This document shows positions 7,442 to 15,217 of a stretch of DNA of 64,000 bases, piece after piece (position 1 is the first letter of the stretch; each line of letters opens with the position of its first letter). Source of the DNA: Flavobacterium crassostreae (GTDB taxonomy: Bacteria > Bacteroidota > Bacteroidia > Flavobacteriales > Flavobacteriaceae); assembly GCF_001831475.1 (NCBI RefSeq), contig NZ_CP017688.1, positions 2,046,001-2,110,000 on the forward strand, given 5' to 3'. The position numbers were made by a program, and so were the translations under genes. The notes beneath the pieces are model-generated. The model saw nothing but the letters and a program-made list of their open reading frames with translations. It was not told the DNA's origin and made no database searches.

Positions 7442-7741
7442 TTAATGGCTTTTTTCTAAAATAATTTGGATCAGCTCTGTTTTTGACAAAACACCAGACT
7501 GTCTCCATACTTGTTTTCCATTTTGGAATAAAATCATGGTAGGAACGCCTTTAACTTGGTATTGGGAGGCTAGTTGCTGGTTTTTGTCTACATCAATTTT
7601 GATAATGGAGATGCCGTCTGCTAAATGGTCTTTGACTTCTTTTAAAATAGGTCCAAGTACTTTGCAAGGCCCACACCAGCTGGCAAAAAAATCTACTAGT
7701 ACGGGTTTGTCGGATTGAATTAGGGTAGTAAAATTACTCAT
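7442..7741 (-). CDS. trxA: Thioredoxin
   Basis: A single thioredoxin fold of 99 residues has the redox motif WCGPC and the cis-Pro region KGVPTM. The start is set at ATG 7741 (MSNFTTLIQ) rather than the in-frame ATG at 7777. That choice gives the usual thioredoxin length and an 8-bp overlap with the stop of the upstream small membrane protein gene. The distal position in a rhodanese/persulfide group suggests a role in reducing protein persulfides or sulfur-transfer enzymes rather than being the housekeeping thioredoxin. That role is inferred. Confidence 0.92.
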   Translation of the reverse strand: MSNFTTLIQSDKPVLVDFFASWCGPCKVLGPILKEVKDHLADGISIIKIDVDKNQQLASQYQVKGVPTMILFQNGKQVWRQSGVLSKTELIQIILEKSH

Positions 7742-7940
7742 TTTTATTTTTTTTATACGATGGAACGGCGCATCCATTTAGACCACAGCCGATATTAAAT
7801 AGTGCCTGAAAGATAAAAACTAAAGCCATAACACCCAACAAATAGTGTCGGTATTGTATGGTTTGTTGCATAAAAAACACACCAATGCCTAAACGAATCC
7901 AGCGCATGCTGTGCCAATTGGTAAAGAGAATTTGTTTCAT
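7734..7940 (-). CDS. Small membrane protein, DUF2892/YgaP-tail-like
   Basis: The 68-residue protein has one or two hydrophobic segments and a C-terminal cysteine-containing motif (GCGLNGCAVP). It resembles the YgaP-type membrane anchor proteins found next to rhodaneses and MBL persulfide dioxygenases. It is embedded between methyltransferase and thioredoxin genes with overlaps on both sides (4 and 8 bp), so it is surely part of that operon. A role in handling reactive sulfur at the membrane is inferred from context. The paired Cys could carry persulfide or bind metal. Confidence 0.7.
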   Translation of the reverse strand: MKQILFTNWHSMRWIRLGIGVFFMQQTIQYRHYLLGVMALVFIFQALFNIGCGLNGCAVPSYKKNKNE

Positions 7941-8773
7941 AATGTTATTTTGCTAATGCTATATTGGCCAGAACTGGCAATCGTTTTTTGTAATTGCGCC
8001 ACTGCTATTTGTTGTTCGGTAACCAATAATAGGGTTTTAAAATCAGTGCTTATACTTGCATTTTGTATCGTATCTAGAGCTTGTAGTTTTTTTAGAATTT
8101 CATTTTTGCAATCGATACAACTAACGCCTTCAAGGGTATAAAGGCTAACGGATACGGCACTGTTTTTTTGCAATTCTATAGCCAATTCGGATTGGGATCT
8201 TGGCGCAACAGATTCTAACTCTGGAATTGCTTTTAGAGTTCTAAAAGCGCCTTTAAAAAGCATTTCGTATTCTGCTTGGCTACCGCCAAATGGTGGTCCT
8301 ACGGCAAAGGATCTGTTAAATAAAACTCCAGCAAGTATGCCATTTGGGGTCAAGAGATCGTGCATTTTGTACACATACTTTTGGCGTAGGCTAGGAGGTA
8401 GAGCACACAAAAAAGTTTGCTCCAGAATGATATCATAAAGGCCTTGATGGGCAAAAAAATCTCCTAGCAAAACCTGTATATTGGTGTTGGTCATAAATTT
8501 TTCTTGAAGAATTTTGACCAAGCTAGGCGCGATGTCTAGAACGGTAATGTTTGTAAAACCTTGTTCTGATAAATAAGCAGCCTCATAGGTATTGCCACAA
8601 CCAGGAATTAAAATGGCGCTATTTTTATTTTGGATGCGGTCTATATACGCACGCATTGGTGGCGATATTTGCCCCAGATCCCAGCCAGTGGTGTTGGCTT
8701 GGTATTGGGCATCCCAATATTTTTGGTCTAGTGGTTGCTCGCAGGCAACGGTACAACAGGATGTGTTATTCAT
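7937..8773 (-). CDS. TPMT-family S-methyltransferase fused to a C-terminal heavy-metal-associated (HMA) domain
   Basis: The 278-residue protein has a class I SAM-methyltransferase core of thiopurine methyltransferase type: YWDAQY and GWDLG near the N-terminus, the SAM loop LIPGCGNTYEA, and DIAP and GDFF strands, up to about residue 205. An HMA-like ferredoxin fold follows with GVSCIDCKNEIL supplying the CxxC pair. The N-terminus is cysteine-rich (SCCTVAC). TPMT-like enzymes methylate thiols, halides, selenium or tellurium compounds. Here, among rhodaneses and a persulfide dioxygenase, a thiol or sulfide methyltransferase is plausible. The HMA fusion is unusual. Confidence 0.85.
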   Translation of the reverse strand: MNNTSCCTVACEQPLDQKYWDAQYQANTTGWDLGQISPPMRAYIDRIQNKNSAILIPGCGNTYEAAYLSEQGFTNITVLDIAPSLVKILQEKFMTNTNIQVLLGDFFAHQGLYDIILEQTFLCALPPSLRQKYVYKMHDLLTPNGILAGVLFNRSFAVGPPFGGSQAEYEMLFKGAFRTLKAIPELESVAPRSQSELAIELQKNSAVSVSLYTLEGVSCIDCKNEILKKLQALDTIQNASISTDFKTLLLVTEQQIAVAQLQKTIASSGQYSISKITL

Positions 8774-9065
8774 AATATGCTATTTTGTAATCTCCTATGT
8801 GTTTTCGGTTTTGGGCAATTCTTTTTTTGTGTCTCCAAAAATTTATAATTCCTAAAACTAAAATCACTACAGAACTGGTGTAAAATCCAATTTCAATTAG
8901 TAAACTATTTTGTATTTTTAACACATTATGGGTGCTTAATCCTGCTACAGCAAAGTACATTGCGGTGCGCAAAAATGCCAATAATGTGGTTTGATTGGCT
9001 AGGGTTGTTCTTTGGAGCGCTAATCTTTCTCTTAAAATTAAGTCTTTATTGATGGAATTTGTCAT
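8766..9065 (-). CDS. DUF202 (YidH-like) inner membrane protein
   Basis: The 99-residue protein has the DUF202 pattern: a charged N-terminus (LILRERLALQRTTLANQTTLLAFLRTAM) followed by two membrane helices. It overlaps the methyltransferase gene by 8 bp and lies 89 bp downstream of the MBL-rhodanese gene, so it is probably read from the same promoter. The family is widespread and its biochemical role is not established. Confidence 0.85.
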   Translation of the reverse strand: MTNSINKDLILRERLALQRTTLANQTTLLAFLRTAMYFAVAGLSTHNVLKIQNSLLIEIGFYTSSVVILVLGIINFWRHKKRIAQNRKHIGDYKIAYYE

Positions 9066-10599: not shown

Positions 10600-10607
10600 C
10601 AAAGGTA
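10600..10607 (-). promoter_or_regulatory. -7 box of the MBL-rhodanese promoter
   Basis: The minus strand reads TACCTTTG, a match to TAnnTTTG, 27 bp upstream of the start codon at 10573. The Crp/Fnr-type site at 10630-10643 begins exactly 30 bp further upstream, centred about 40 bp before the predicted transcription start. Confidence 0.65.
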
Positions 10608-10629
10608 CTGGTTGTATTTGTATTATATA

Positions 10630-10643
10630 GTGACTAATGTTAC
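10630..10643 (+). promoter_or_regulatory. Crp/Fnr-type operator upstream of MBL-rhodanese gene
   Basis: GTGACTAATGTTAC has half-sites GTGAC and GTTAC (GTAAC on the other strand) separated by 4 bp. The same motif, with one half GTGAT, occurs at 11495-11508 before the TauE gene at an identical distance from that -7 box. The spacing suits a class II activator. The likely binder is the Crp/Fnr protein encoded at 11519-12145. Confidence 0.6.
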
Positions 10644-10662
10644 ATATTGGGCTAGAATTTAT

Positions 10663-11448
10663 TTAAAAAAAGAGTTCTTTGGTTATAATGTATATTCCCA
10701 TAACCAATACAAACCAACCAAAGGCGGGTTTTAGTTTGGCGCCGTCTATTTTTTTGGACAATTGGGTTCCTAGCAACAAACCCAGTATGGCCATAATAGA
10801 GATTGTAAAAAGCAATTGGTAATCTAGCACAATGCCAGTTATAATATCTCCTACAAAACCCAGAATAGAATTGATACTGATGATAAAGAGGGAGGTTCCA
10901 ACGGCTTGTTTTATGGGTAAATTTGCAAAAAACAACAAAGCAGGAATGATTAAAAATCCGCCACCAGCGCCCAGAAAGCCAATGATTAAACCTACCAAAA
11001 AACCGATAAAGCCCACCATTTGTAAGTTGATTTCTGGACTTGCTATTTCTTTTTTGGATTTTTGGAGCATGGATATAGAGGCTGCAATCATCAAAATGGC
11101 AAAAACCACCATAATCAACAGGTTTTTGGTCAATACCAAATAGGGCAAATCCAATAGTATATCGGGTATTAAATGCAGTACAAATTTTCGAACTAGTAAT
11201 ACCGAAAAGATTGAAGGTATGGCAAAGACCAATGCAAACTTAATCTTTAAATTGCCTAAGCGGTAATGGCTATAGGAGCCTATCATGGCAGTAATACCAA
11301 CAATAAATAAGGAGTAACTTGTGGCTTGTTCTGGATGTATTTTAAATAAATACACCAATATGGGCACCGCTAGTATCGAACCACCGCCACCAATTAGCCC
11401 TAAAGAAAGACCAATAATTATTGAAGCCAAATATCCTAAAATTTCCAT
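10663..11448 (-). CDS. TauE/SafE-family sulfite/sulfonate exporter
   Basis: The 261-residue membrane protein has about eight helices and the duplicated glycine-rich family motif: LGLIGGGGSILAVPIL near the N-terminus and IGFLGAGGGFLIIPAL in the second half. Family members export sulfite, sulfoacetate or related organosulfur anions. Placed between a persulfide dioxygenase, whose product is sulfite, and a Crp/Fnr regulator, sulfite export is the simplest reading. It has its own promoter with the shared operator. Confidence 0.88.
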   Translation of the reverse strand: MEILGYLASIIIGLSLGLIGGGGSILAVPILVYLFKIHPEQATSYSLFIVGITAMIGSYSHYRLGNLKIKFALVFAIPSIFSVLLVRKFVLHLIPDILLDLPYLVLTKNLLIMVVFAILMIAASISMLQKSKKEIASPEINLQMVGFIGFLVGLIIGFLGAGGGFLIIPALLFFANLPIKQAVGTSLFIISINSILGFVGDIITGIVLDYQLLFTISIMAILGLLLGTQLSKKIDGAKLKPAFGWFVLVMGIYIITKELFF

Positions 11449-11464
11449 TTATACTTATTTGTTA

Positions 11465-11508
11465 CAAAGATGGGTAAATCCAGTATTTGGTACAGTAACA
11501 TTTATCAC
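11465..11508 (-). promoter_or_regulatory. TauE promoter: -7 box plus Crp/Fnr-type operator
   Basis: On the minus strand CATCTTTG (11472-11465) is a near-consensus -7 box, 17 bp before the start codon. GTGATAAATGTTAC (11508-11495) is the same motif as at 10630-10643. The distance between the starts of box and operator is 30 bp in both promoters. Confidence 0.6.
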
Positions 11509-11518
11509 ACAAAGGCTT

Positions 11519-12145
11519 TTATTGTAGTAGCGCAATATGGTTTCTGTACAACCGTACCAGATTGCGTTGTTCCATTTTTTTGAGCAAACGAGAAATAACC
11601 TCTCTAGAGGTGTTTAATTCTGTAGCAATTTCTTGATGGGAGAGTTTTAGGTCCAAACAGCCGCAAGCCTCGCTATGGCGTTTTAAATAAAATTCCAAAC
11701 GCTCATCCATGGCTCTAAAGGCAATACTATCAATTACCTCCAAGACTTCTTCAAAACGGCTTCTGTAGGTAAAAATCACAAACTCATACCAACTGCGGTG
11801 CTCCATCATCCATTTTTCCATAATAGCAAGTGGTACCAGGATCAACTCTACATCGTCTACGGCTTTGGCCATCACCTGGCTGGTTTGGCTCTTGGAGGCA
11901 CAAATCATCGAAACGGCACAGGCTTGACCCGGTTGTAGGTAATACATAAAAAACTCTCCGCCATTTTCTCCTTCTCTATAAATTTTTAATTGTCCTTTGG
12001 TAACCAATATAGTATGGTTAATGTACTGTCCAGTACGCATGATTGTATCTCCAGACTGGTAACTTTTTACCACAGCATGGGTATGGATGTCTTGGACTAA
12101 ATCTGCAGAAAAATTAGGAAATGTTTTTTGGATAGTCTCTTGCAT
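11519..12145 (-). CDS. Crp/Fnr-family transcriptional regulator (probable sulfur-gene activator)
   Basis: The 208-residue protein has an N-terminal cyclic-nucleotide-like beta-barrel and a C-terminal winged helix. The recognition helix TSREVISRLLKKM has Arg181, Glu182 and Arg186 in the positions CRP uses to read GTGA, matching the GTGA half-sites before the MBL and TauE genes. Cys76, Cys82, Cys161 and Cys163 could sense thiol or persulfide state (inference). The start is set at ATG 12145 (MQETIQ); the frame extends to 12226, but those residues are not family-like. It ends 11 bp upstream of the TauE operator, so the two may be read together. Confidence 0.88.
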   Translation of the reverse strand: MQETIQKTFPNFSADLVQDIHTHAVVKSYQSGDTIMRTGQYINHTILVTKGQLKIYREGENGGEFFMYYLQPGQACAVSMICASKSQTSQVMAKAVDDVELILVPLAIMEKWMMEHRSWYEFVIFTYRSRFEEVLEVIDSIAFRAMDERLEFYLKRHSEACGCLDLKLSHQEIATELNTSREVISRLLKKMEQRNLVRLYRNHIALLQ

Positions 12146-12420: not shown

Positions 12421-12726
12421 ATGAATTTAACACAAACCGATTGGACTACGCAATTAGAGGCAGATACCAATGCAGTAATTTTAGATGTACGCACTGAAGA
12501 TGAGTGTAATGAAGGCATTATTGAAAAGGCTATTAATATAGACATCCACCAAGGGCAAGCTTTTATAGATGCCATAGGAGCATTAGATAAAAACAAAAAC
12601 TACTATGTGTATTGTCGTTCTGGAGCCCGTAGTGGTAAAGCCTGCGAAATCATGAACGAATTAGGAATAGCCAATGCTTATAATTTAACTGGAGGTGTTT
12701 TGGCCTGGAACGGAGAGCTAGTATAG
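12421..12726 (+). CDS. Single-domain rhodanese
   Basis: The 101-residue rhodanese domain has DVRTEDE at the conserved Asp-Arg position and an active loop with Cys in YCRSGARS. The Arg-rich loop is typical of sulfurtransferases of GlpE/PspE type. It is cytoplasmic, as no signal peptide is seen. It sits divergently beside the sulfur gene group and probably belongs to it functionally. A clear terminator follows. Confidence 0.92.
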   Translation: MNLTQTDWTTQLEADTNAVILDVRTEDECNEGIIEKAINIDIHQGQAFIDAIGALDKNKNYYVYCRSGARSGKACEIMNELGIANAYNLTGGVLAWNGELV

Positions 12727-12983: not shown

Positions 12984-14033
12984 CTAATTTTTTAACTTAC
13001 TCATTTGTTCGAGATTTATAATCTTTATTTTACTGCCTTTTTTTTCAATTAGTCCTTCATTTTTAAATTCCGTAAGAGTACGGCTAACGGTTTCGGAAGC
13101 TGTTCCTGACAAAGCCGCAAGATCATCTCTACTGATACTGATGCTGTCAACTTCATTGTGGTTTTGTAAAAACAAACGTAAAATAGCCTCGGCAACTCTT
13201 TTTCGTACCGATTGATAAGCCAGTTGTAAAAGATATTCATCTTTATTGCGAATGTCATTGGATAGAATTTTTAGAAACTTTTCGGCAACGTCAGGATATA
13301 GCCGCAATAGTTCATCAAATTGTGCTTTAGGAAAATAACATAAGCAACTATCTTCTAGAGCAGTTGCAGTATCATCGTAGGGCTTGTTAGATAATATGAT
13401 ATTGGTTCCTAGAAAATCATCTGATTGGTAAATACCAGTCATTAATTCACGTCCTTCTTGGGTCATTTTGATGGTTTTTATTTTACCCGAAAGGACAAGG
13501 TACACTCCCACAGCACTATCGCCTTCATAATATAATATCTGACTTTTTTTGTAGAATCTGCTTTTTCGTTCGGCTATGATTTTTTTTAATTCGTTCAAAC
13601 CATTATTTTTGGACACAAGCTTATCGAGTTTATCTAAGGACTGGCTATAAAAATGCTGCATTACATCTTTTTTCTTGAGCCTAGTTTCGATAGCGTTTAA
13701 GAGTTCTAATCTTCCAAATGGTTTTGTGAGATAATCATCAGCACCCATTTCCATTCCTTTGCGCATATCCATTCGTTCTGATTTTGCAGTAATGAAAATA
13801 AAAGGAATATTAGTGGTTTCGGGGTTTTTATTTAGTAGATACAACACACCATAGCCATCCAGTTCTGGCATCATGATATCACAAAGAATGATGTTTGGTA
13901 AAATTATTGTTGCCATTTCGACTCCTTGTTTGCCATTTTTGGCCACAGAAACCTCATAATCTGCCAATTCCAGAATTTCAACGATATTTTCTCTTATCTC
14001 ATTGTGGTCTTCAATTACGAGTACTTTGTTCAT
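12984..14033 (-). CDS. Response regulator: receiver domain fused to a Crp/Fnr-type DNA-binding module
   Basis: The 349-residue protein has a receiver domain (residues 1-120; IEDH, phospho-acceptor Asp52, Thr82, Lys104), a helical linker, a cyclic-nucleotide-like beta-barrel (about 150-260) and a winged helix whose recognition segment SETVSR matches the E-x-x-S-R pattern Fnr uses for TTGA half-sites. It overlaps the kinase gene by 4 bp, which establishes the pair. Functionally it looks like FixJ and FixK combined in one chain. Targets are not proven; the divergent BON/GH130 cluster is the obvious candidate. Confidence 0.9.
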   Translation of the reverse strand: MNKVLVIEDHNEIRENIVEILELADYEVSVAKNGKQGVEMATIILPNIILCDIMMPELDGYGVLYLLNKNPETTNIPFIFITAKSERMDMRKGMEMGADDYLTKPFGRLELLNAIETRLKKKDVMQHFYSQSLDKLDKLVSKNNGLNELKKIIAERKSRFYKKSQILYYEGDSAVGVYLVLSGKIKTIKMTQEGRELMTGIYQSDDFLGTNIILSNKPYDDTATALEDSCLCYFPKAQFDELLRLYPDVAEKFLKILSNDIRNKDEYLLQLAYQSVRKRVAEAILRLFLQNHNEVDSISISRDDLAALSGTASETVSRTLTEFKNEGLIEKKGSKIKIINLEQMSKLKN

Positions 14034-15217
14034 TTTAATGAAAATTTTAGTGTAAATAATGTACCTATATTTAGCGTACTGCTATAGGAGATTGTACCTT
14101 CCATGAGCGTTATGTATCGAGCAACAATATTTAAACCCAATCCAGTACCTGGAATATTACCTGTATTTTGTGCTCTAAAAAAAGGTTGAAACAAATATTT
14201 TTTGTCTTCTTCTGGAATGCCAATTCCTTCATCCTGTACACTTATGGTACAATGATGATCTGTAATTTCTGTTGTAAATACGATGGTAGAATGATCCTTG
14301 GAGTATTTTATAGCATTAGTAATTAGGTTTATAACGCAATTTTTTATTAAATTTTTATCTAAATTAATTAGTCTTTGTTCGCCATAATGGGTAAATTGTA
14401 TGTGCTGTTCTCCATTTGCCAATAATTGCATTTCTTCGGTAATTTCTTCGGCTAATTTTACCAAATCAAAACAAGATAGTTTTACGGGTACTATTCCTAC
14501 TTCTAATTGTTCAATGTATAAAAAGTCGTTGAGTACTGTGGTCAAGTTGTTTACCGCATTTATTATTTTCCCGGCATGCCTAATGATATTGGCGTTAGCT
14601 ATTGGTTCGGCATATTTTTCTATAAGTGATGCAGATAGGTGTGCGGTGCTCAAGGGCGTCCGAAACTCATGTGATGCCATGGATAAAAATCGGTTTTTTA
14701 GTGTGCTCAGATGTTTTTCTTTTTCTAAAGTTACACTTACTTTAGCTTTAGCTTTTTCAAGGTCTTTAATTGTTTTATTGAGGATCTTCGTTCGTTGTTC
14801 AACTAGTTCTTCCAAGTGAGAAGCATATTTTTTCAACTGTTCCTCATTTGCTTTTTGTTGTGTCAGGTCATGTATAAACCCAGCATAAATTCGTCTACCT
14901 GCATAGTTAACTTCGCTTACTCCAAGTTTAAAAGGAAACTGGTTTCCCGCTTTTTTTCGACCTGTGAGTTCTCTTCCAATACCTATAATATGAGCCTGAC
15001 CGGTGGTTTTATAATCCTCAAGGTGTTGGTTGTGGGATTCTTGATCGTCTGATAGCATCAACATCGAAATGTTGTTGCCTATAACTTCTACTTCTGTATA
15101 ATCAAAGAGTTTACATGCCGATGGGTTGATACTTTCGATCGTTCCAAAATCGTCAATAGTGATAATGCCGTCGATGGCATTATGCACTAAAGCATGTAAT
15201 AGAGCAGCGTTTTCCAT
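14030..15217 (-). CDS. PAS sensor histidine kinase, FixL-like
   Basis: The 395-residue soluble kinase has an N-terminal PAS domain (about 5-120), a coiled coil, an H-box ASHEFRTPL (His183) and an ATPase domain with NLITNA, DEGIGIP and GTGLGLNI. The PAS has HIIGIGRELTG followed by FPFKLGVSE, very close to the heme PAS of FixL. His62 aligns with the FixL heme-ligand His200 and Arg82 with the O2-sensing Arg220, while the position of Arg206 is Asp68. No membrane segment is seen. Oxygen or redox sensing is inferred, since non-heme PAS domains can share part of this pattern. Confidence 0.88.
   Translation of the reverse strand: MENAALLHALVHNAIDGIITIDDFGTIESINPSACKLFDYTEVEVIGNNISMLMLSDDQESHNQHLEDYKTTGQAHIIGIGRELTGRKKAGNQFPFKLGVSEVNYAGRRIYAGFIHDLTQQKANEEQLKKYASHLEELVEQRTKILNKTIKDLEKAKAKVSVTLEKEKHLSTLKNRFLSMASHEFRTPLSTAHLSASLIEKYAEPIANANIIRHAGKIINAVNNLTTVLNDFLYIEQLEVGIVPVKLSCFDLVKLAEEITEEMQLLANGEQHIQFTHYGEQRLINLDKNLIKNCVINLITNAIKYSKDHSTIVFTTEITDHHCTISVQDEGIGIPEEDKKYLFQPFFRAQNTGNIPGTGLGLNIVARYITLMEGTISYSSTLNIGTLFTLKFSLK

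Follow-up and report, generated by a model that had tools for sequence, protein, structure and literature searches.

A putative Crp/Fnr-type activator of sulfur-detoxification genes in Flavobacterium crassostreae and related Bacteroidota

Known reactive-sulfur regulators and the F. crassostreae locus

Bacterial regulators of reactive sulfur belong to several families: a 2022 review names CstR, SqrR, BigR, PigS and FisR, which are of the CsoR, ArsR and Fis types, and the word "Fnr" is absent from its main text (PMC9774590). Here we analyse a stretch of 64,000 nucleotides of the Flavobacterium crassostreae genome (the window, C1:2046001-2110000 of a single contig of 3,027,315 bases), in which the minus strand encodes, in the order of transcription, a Crp/Fnr-type regulator, a TauE/SafE-type exporter (tauE), a metallo-beta-lactamase (MBL)-rhodanese (mbl), a DUF202 protein, a TPMT-like methyltransferase and a thioredoxin. 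We propose, with a probability of roughly two in three, that the regulator (11519-12145) activates a regulon for sulfur detoxification and that its signal is most likely excess persulfide or sulfane sulfur, perceived through the cysteines C76 and C82.

BigR of Xylella and Agrobacterium, a sulfide/polysulfide sensor, controls in the BigR-Blh operon a sulfite-forming sulfur transferase/dioxygenase (PMC5823870), as the regulator of the present locus is predicted to do. BigR is an ArsR-type repressor, whereas the regulator in the window is of the Crp/Fnr family, has its predicted sites at the class II activator position and carries cysteines in the segment of a cyclic-nucleotide-type pocket. The BigR operon also contains a TauE-like transporter. 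In the cst system of Staphylococcus aureus, CstR senses persulfide through a dithiol (PMC9774590), and the MBL-rhodanese of the window matches the solved protein 3r2u over nearly its full length, but CstR is a tetrameric repressor of the CsoR family and in this unlike the window regulator. FisR of Cupriavidus is an activator that senses reactive sulfur via conserved cysteines (PMC9774590); it is of the Fis type and acts with sigma-54, the title of the cited work speaking of sigma-54-dependent sulfide-oxidizing genes, while the promoters in the window have the housekeeping -7 box. The class II activators CRP and NtcA share with the window regulator the family, the predicted fold, the operator centre at -41.5 and (for CRP) the Arg-Glu-x3-Arg base readers, and differ from it in that the regulator has the segment QACAVSMIC instead of effector-binding residues and a sulfur regulon.

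The gene set is of a kind already known, and what is new is the family of the regulator, the activator geometry and the cysteine-bearing pocket. A literature search by title and start of abstract, outside which most subscription journals lie, returned no paper that links a Crp/Fnr protein to persulfide genes; regulators of the MarR and PerR types are also said, in the titles of papers, to respond to reactive sulfur. More tentatively, the locus may represent a phylum-wide group of Bacteroidota Crp/Fnr activators in which the cyclic-nucleotide pocket has become a CX5C sensor that forms polysulfide bridges, which would make it the first Crp/Fnr persulfide sensor, acting from -41.5 on housekeeping-sigma promoters and re-tuned between GTGA and GTAA half-sites by a Glu/Val switch. 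The analysis names a candidate reactive-sulfur regulator together with its operator to the base, its promoter geometry and a predicted regulon that includes an RND efflux pump, and singles out C76 and C82 as candidate sensor residues and E182 as the candidate determinant of the DNA code. For the unusual promoter of Bacteroidota, the operator moreover provides a well-defined activator site that could be used for inducible expression.

Operators and promoter geometry

The sites, their spacing and their target genes were read from sequence comparison. The initial annotation had proposed near-identical operators before mbl and tauE, and both are indeed found, with 12 of 14 bases common to 10630-10643 and 11508-11495 (Table 1). 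The pattern GTGAYWAATGTTAC has exactly two matches in the 3.03-Mb genome, which are these two operators, and the reversed control has none. The mbl and tauE sites point opposite ways relative to their genes (in the direction of mbl, its site reads GTAACATTAGTCAC), which is immaterial since both are imperfect palindromes of the form GTRAY-N4-RTYAC. As had been claimed, the spacing to the -7 box is equal in both promoters, but the 30 bp then given for the distance between box start and operator start is in fact that of the operator centre (29.5 bp): the operator begins 36 bp from the box start, and the TTTG of the box begins 40 bp from the operator start (hereafter +40). The tauE box CATCTTTG is a weak version of TAnnTTTG, a box that in F. 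psychrophilum spans -12 to -5 (PMC9723704). When this published position is applied, start sites are predicted at 11460 (tauE) and 10595 (mbl), and the operator centre thus falls at -41.5 in both promoters. Together with the fixed spacing, this centre fits the class II activator position put forward in the initial annotation, and both promoters would qualify as class II activated, the start sites being predicted from the box position. A dimer of the regulator would bind GTRAY-N4-RTYAC at -41.5 and substitute for a missing -33 element.

Across the source genome GTRAYN4RTYAC occurs at 77 places and its reversed pattern at 69; since the motif is as frequent as its reversed form, we rejected it as evidence by itself, and only motif and spacing combined discriminate. 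One tandem repeat outside the window (L141, G000:C1:1025688-1036801) accounts for 38 of the 77 places, with a 300-bp unit arranged head to tail and GTGACGCCAGTTAC in each; the copy that was inspected lies inside an open reading frame (ORF), probably of a very large repeat protein gene. When this repeat is counted once, 40 distinct places can be read, five of which have TTTG at +40 compared with 0.9 expected on either strand. Only six of the 40 lie outside ORFs of at least 120 aa, and five of these six have TTTG at +40. The five sites precede tauE, mbl, a rhodanese pair (2858850) that is unlinked to the window locus, an outer-membrane efflux (OMF) gene (2042727) that heads an OMF-MFP-RND operon, and a DUF983 gene (91805), all of which would be direct targets of the regulator.

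The best-matching named relatives of the regulator are from Flavobacterium species, and a search of 61 genomes of the genus found a relative in 54 (E 1e-20). We grouped these from the listed identities into clade A, 29 genomes with a close ortholog (68-100% identity, one cut by a contig end), and clade B, 25 genomes that have solely a relative of 34-40% identity. The absence of sites before orthologous genes, which the initial annotation had named as the finding that would speak against it, was not what we observed: the operator is present in 24 of the 26 clade-A loci (of 29) in which the tauE start is visible and in 12 of 13 (of 29) in which the mbl start is visible, and all 36 of these operators (24 tauE, 12 mbl) have TTTG at +40. 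In a fuller test of mbl, which used a subset of the listed copies, one per clade-A genome, and left out G031 with its partial gene, the operator was found in 27 of 28 genomes, and where present it keeps the spacing. Among 29 clade-B mbl upstream stretches, one has a perfect site at +40, three have a one-mismatch site at +40 and 12 have a perfect site without TTTG at +40; in nine of these 12, TAnnTTTA stands at the identical position, so that the spacing is kept and only the box varies. The 61 genomes contain 38 copies of the pattern GTGAYAAATGTTAC as opposed to 11 of the reversed control, and the pattern is present in 23 of 29 clade-A genomes and in 7 of the 32 others. The unlinked sites recur in the genus as well: an operator precedes OMF in 19 of 20 loci (16 at +40), and the rhodanese has one at +40 in 19 of 30 loci (32 genomes with a match); 17 of these 30 have less than 50% identity, and some of them may not be orthologs. 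In G055 a regulator gene lies directly before the OMF operon, with an operator in between.

We then extended the scan for operators at a fixed distance from TAnnTTTG, as the initial annotation had suggested, to 80 named loci (1,031,407 bases), the top 80 among 586 confirmed matches to the regulator alignment, from Flavobacterium, Chitinophagaceae, Pedobacter, Dyadobacter, Pontibacter and others. GTRAYN4RTYAC occurs 155 times in these loci, compared with 30 occurrences of the reversed pattern and 6-15 in ten first-order Markov resamplings. TTTG stands at +40 in 110 orientations of the 155 palindromes, in 63 of the 80 loci, while the mean elsewhere within the offset range 25 to 55 is 1.9 (+41 left out), and none of the 30 reversed places in these loci has TTTG at +40.

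Duplicates removed, the pooled operators (29 clade-A, 29 clade-B, 80 named and 29 phylum-search loci) comprise 187 distinct +40 sites, which precede tauE (88), mbl (62), a rhodanese (6), OMF (4), crp (1) or another gene (20), with no ORF of 70 aa downstream in the remaining six; tauE and mbl are favoured in these counts as neighbours, since the loci were picked by the regulator. Pfam scans of 12 of the 20 other targets identified four sulfur transporters (PF04143, YeeE/YedE), a sulfate permease, a peroxiredoxin, a cytochrome c, a thioredoxin reductase, a methyltransferase, a heavy-metal-associated (HMA) protein and a TetR protein, and one had no match. The dominance of tauE and mbl, with rhodaneses and YeeE/YedE in addition, supports the earlier reading of a sulfur regulon, and in the Bacteroidota loci examined the regulon appears to be mainly one of sulfur detoxification, as assigned from operators and not from expression.

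The same counts bear on whether the regulator activates or represses. A repressor overlapping the promoter and released by the signal, in the manner of BigR, SqrR and CstR, would agree with the repressor nature of the ArsR- and CsoR-family persulfide regulators (PMC9774590) and with an operator within reach of the promoter. It would, however, have no need of an exact distance, yet the 110 cases at +40 drop to 12 at +41 and 6 at +42, and an operator centred at -41.5 leaves the -7 box uncovered. Moreover, TTTG near -33 is rare (6/187 pooled operators) and the first T of the -7 box is degenerate (33% T of 166, mainly from the Glu-type pool described below), both of which are marks of activator-dependent promoters. 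We consider repression improbable on these grounds, and class II activation by the regulator very probable. That the regulator binds the GTRAY-N4-RTYAC operators, the point on which we are most confident, and that it activates rather than represses, we infer from sequence comparison.

DNA recognition, the cysteine pair and the signal

The regulator belongs to the Crp/Fnr family, as both of its Pfam matches exceed the cut-off (N-terminal cNMP_binding beta-roll, PF00027, 44.1 bits; C-terminal Crp-type HTH, PF13545, 43.8 bits) and the order of helices and strands in its model agrees. It is not placed with the cAMP-CRP equivalog (PRK11753, 45.5 bits versus a cut-off of 266), its pocket segment having C76 and C82, nor with the NtcA equivalog (TIGR03697, 56.2 bits versus 244.95). 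FNR-type Fe-S oxygen sensors carry an N-terminal cysteine cluster; the regulator has no cysteine ahead of C76 and is not assigned to this type.

The recognition helix, TSREVISR, contains R181, E182 and R186, which correspond to the base-reading residues Arg180, Glu181 and Arg185 of E. coli CRP (PMC12531629), bearing out the CRP-like RE-x3-R signature reported in the initial annotation; the three residues would read the half-site as their CRP counterparts do. Clade B regulators have Val in place of E182. We compared residue and operator for 123 distinct regulators, taking operators from 45 bp before to 300 bp after the stop codon: all 97 Glu regulators have an operator with a GTGA half, and 20 of 26 Val regulators have none. 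Val at the CRP Glu181 position favours A:T there, according to earlier CRP genetics. The OMF promoter has a GTGA half in all nine clade-A loci (8 genomes) and in none of the ten nearest operators in clade-B genomes. On the tree, Glu and Val switched at least six times, and of the three independent pairs that test the match about two agree, none opposes and one has no difference.

This match also bears on the idea that the sites are bound by another regulator, the adjacent Crp gene being a bystander. The genome does encode two more Crp-family proteins above the Pfam cut-off, three in all, one of which, a response regulator-Crp fusion (12984-14033), adjoins the locus. Their recognition helices, TATESCIR and TASETVSR, have no Arg where CRP has Arg180, S-R-E-x3-R being confined to the window regulator, and we rejected the fusion as the binder because its helix is TASETVSR. 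In addition, the operator type tracks the recognition residue of the window regulator, and none of five genus genomes without a detected regulator has a perfect +40 site before mbl (one has a one-mismatch site). A bystander role is in our judgement very improbable.

Four cysteines had been pointed out in the regulator. All four are present, but conservation is confined to C76 and C82, while C161 and C163 are lost in close relatives, so that a four-cysteine sensor was rejected. In alignment A2 (34 sequences chosen among clade-A, clade-B and named loci before the single-cysteine branch described below was seen) C76 and C82 occur in 34/34 sequences, and a wider set has CX5C in 173 of its 187 sequences. 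Alignment to NtcA puts both cysteines inside what we take to be the effector-pocket segment, with QACAVSMIC replacing the effector-binding residues. In the AlphaFold model (mean pLDDT 89.9, pTM 0.68), C76 lies just before, and C82 within, a short helix formed by residues 77-84. The best PDB match, the solved Crp/Fnr-family structure 3dv8, compared by sequence alone, likewise has C-x5-C at the aligned place.

In a sample of 392 Bacteroidota genomes the regulator alignment found a match in 160 (E 1e-30), a number that exceeds the CX5C class since the broad profile also catches a branch with a single cysteine. Of 20 loci inspected from the phylum sample, 13 are without CX5C and represent this sister branch, which has a single cysteine in the C76 position and lacks one in that of C82; CX5C changed once on the tree. 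Its members (L382, L383, L385-L390, L392-L395 and L397; with, for example, GESCIMS) perhaps represent a different thiol sensor, and a thioredoxin match lies about 250-450 bp downstream in 5 of the 13 loci.

Because of the pocket position of C76 and C82, their conservation and the nature of the regulon, we infer persulfide sensing by this pair; the cysteine chemistry and the substrates of the gene products are likewise predictions. Detoxification targets (assigned by operators) and a conserved cysteine pair are both as expected of a persulfide regulator. It is likely that C76 and C82 form the sensor, and somewhat less so, though still favoured, that persulfide or sulfane sulfur is the signal. 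Alternatively, the regulator could act as a class II activator on these operators in response to another signal, be it sulfite, thiosulfate, H2S, hypochlorite or electrophiles, copper, or a metal or Fe-S centre on C76/C82. CX5C could bind metal, the operator-bearing targets include HMA-domain proteins, the RND efflux operon, a peroxiredoxin and a cytochrome c, and the thioredoxin genes beside the single-cysteine branch point the same way, but the dominant targets are TauE and the persulfide dioxygenase, accompanied by rhodanese and YeeE/YedE, and the persulfide-type sensor BigR also controls a sulfur transferase/dioxygenase (PMC5823870). We hold such other signals to be unlikely, albeit less so than repression.

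In the proposed activation by persulfide, excess persulfide or sulfane sulfur would act at C76 and C82, which occupy the place of small-molecule effector binding in CRP and NtcA, and a di-, tri- or tetrasulfide between the two would shift helix 77-84 and thereby set the DNA-binding state. The MBL-rhodanese would oxidise persulfide to sulfite, rhodanese and thioredoxin would pass on sulfane sulfur, and TauE would export sulfite. The MBL-rhodanese matches the solved proteins 3tp9 (218 bits) and 3r2u (190 bits, presumably S. aureus CstB) near full length (residues 3-453), and its MBL part matches ETHE1 (4chl). This is the CstB/PDO-type architecture of MBL and rhodanese with near full-length similarity to solved members, from which persulfide-to-sulfite activity is predicted.

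Several observations weigh against this proposal. Two of the 26 clade-A tauE promoters (L010 and L014) lack the operator; G039, with no regulator detected, has a one-mismatch site and TAAATTTG at the same spacing before mbl; 13 of the 29 clade-B mbl upstream stretches have no perfect site and none within one mismatch at +40; and in G059, where a clade-B regulator adjoins the OMF operon, no perfect site is present. As to recognition, a second site, which lies farther away and does contain a GTGA half, occurs in two clade-B OMF loci, and 9 of 10 rhodanese-pair operators in clade-A (Glu) genomes have no GTGA half. The Glu/Val match was rejected as independent statistical proof, as it is not significant: only three independent pairs bear on it, the 123 rows being for the most part non-independent. 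As to the signal, C76 and C82 are not placed in an obvious disulfide geometry in the model, and some members of the single-cysteine branch use operators of the same kind, so DNA binding would not require the cysteine pair, and the signal may be a different one.

Gene content and neighbouring features

The features of the locus are collected in Table 1. The methyltransferase and thioredoxin had been counted among the products of the regulon; both genes do lie downstream of mbl but have no operators of their own, hence their membership is by way of the operon only. No operator was found in a search before the divergent single-domain rhodanese gene.

Table 1. Genes, operators and promoter elements of the locus (window coordinates).
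Feature	Position	Strand	Evidence or remark
Crp/Fnr-type regulator, 208 aa	11519..12145	-	Pfam cNMP_binding and HTH_Crp_2; alignments; AlphaFold model
TauE/SafE-type exporter (tauE), 261 aa; family annotated as sulfite exporter	10663..11448	-	Pfam TauE, 143 bits
Metallo-beta-lactamase-rhodanese (mbl), persulfide dioxygenase-like, 472 aa	9155..10573	-	Pfam Lactamase_B, Rhodanese x2
DUF202 membrane protein	8766..9065	-	possibly in mbl operon; same strand, 89-bp gap, without own operator
TPMT-like thiol methyltransferase	7937..8773	-	TPMT, 97.5 bits; possibly in mbl operon
Thioredoxin	7442..7741	-	TIGR01068 above cut-off; possibly in mbl operon
Single-domain rhodanese	12421..12726	+	divergent from regulator gene; beside regulator in most clade-A loci
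tauE operator GTGATAAATGTTAC	11495..11508	-	operator in 24/26 clade-A tauE promoters
mbl operator GTAACATTAGTCAC toward gene (GTGACTAATGTTAC on + strand)	10630..10643	-	operator in 27/28 clade-A mbl promoters
tauE -7 box CATCTTTG	11465..11472	-	TTTG begins 40 bp from operator start
mbl -7 box TACCTTTG	10600..10607	-	TTTG begins 40 bp from operator start

The response regulator-Crp fusion overlaps by 4 bp the gene at 14030-15217, which by eye resembles a sensor kinase, and such a gene pair beside a sulfur locus is unusual. The C-terminal part of the methyltransferase has a weak HMA match (20.6 bits, under the cut-off), and the protein is possibly a methyltransferase-HMA fusion. The match to MBL-rhodanese relatives in L322, L323, L327, L346 and L347 (from G017, G036, G030, G038 and G039) contains one internal TAA, which may only mark the end of the match because the open frame is near full length. 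Upstream of the clade-B mbl genes in L362, L371, L379 and L380, [AC]TGAY-N4-RTCAT occurs with TAnnTTT at the same spacing and is perhaps the operator of another Crp paralogue. Last in the OMF-MFP-RND operon is a gene for a 101-aa protein without a Pfam match (L205:2964-3266), and proteins of similar length, and by eye of similar sequence, occupy its position in L208 and L209.

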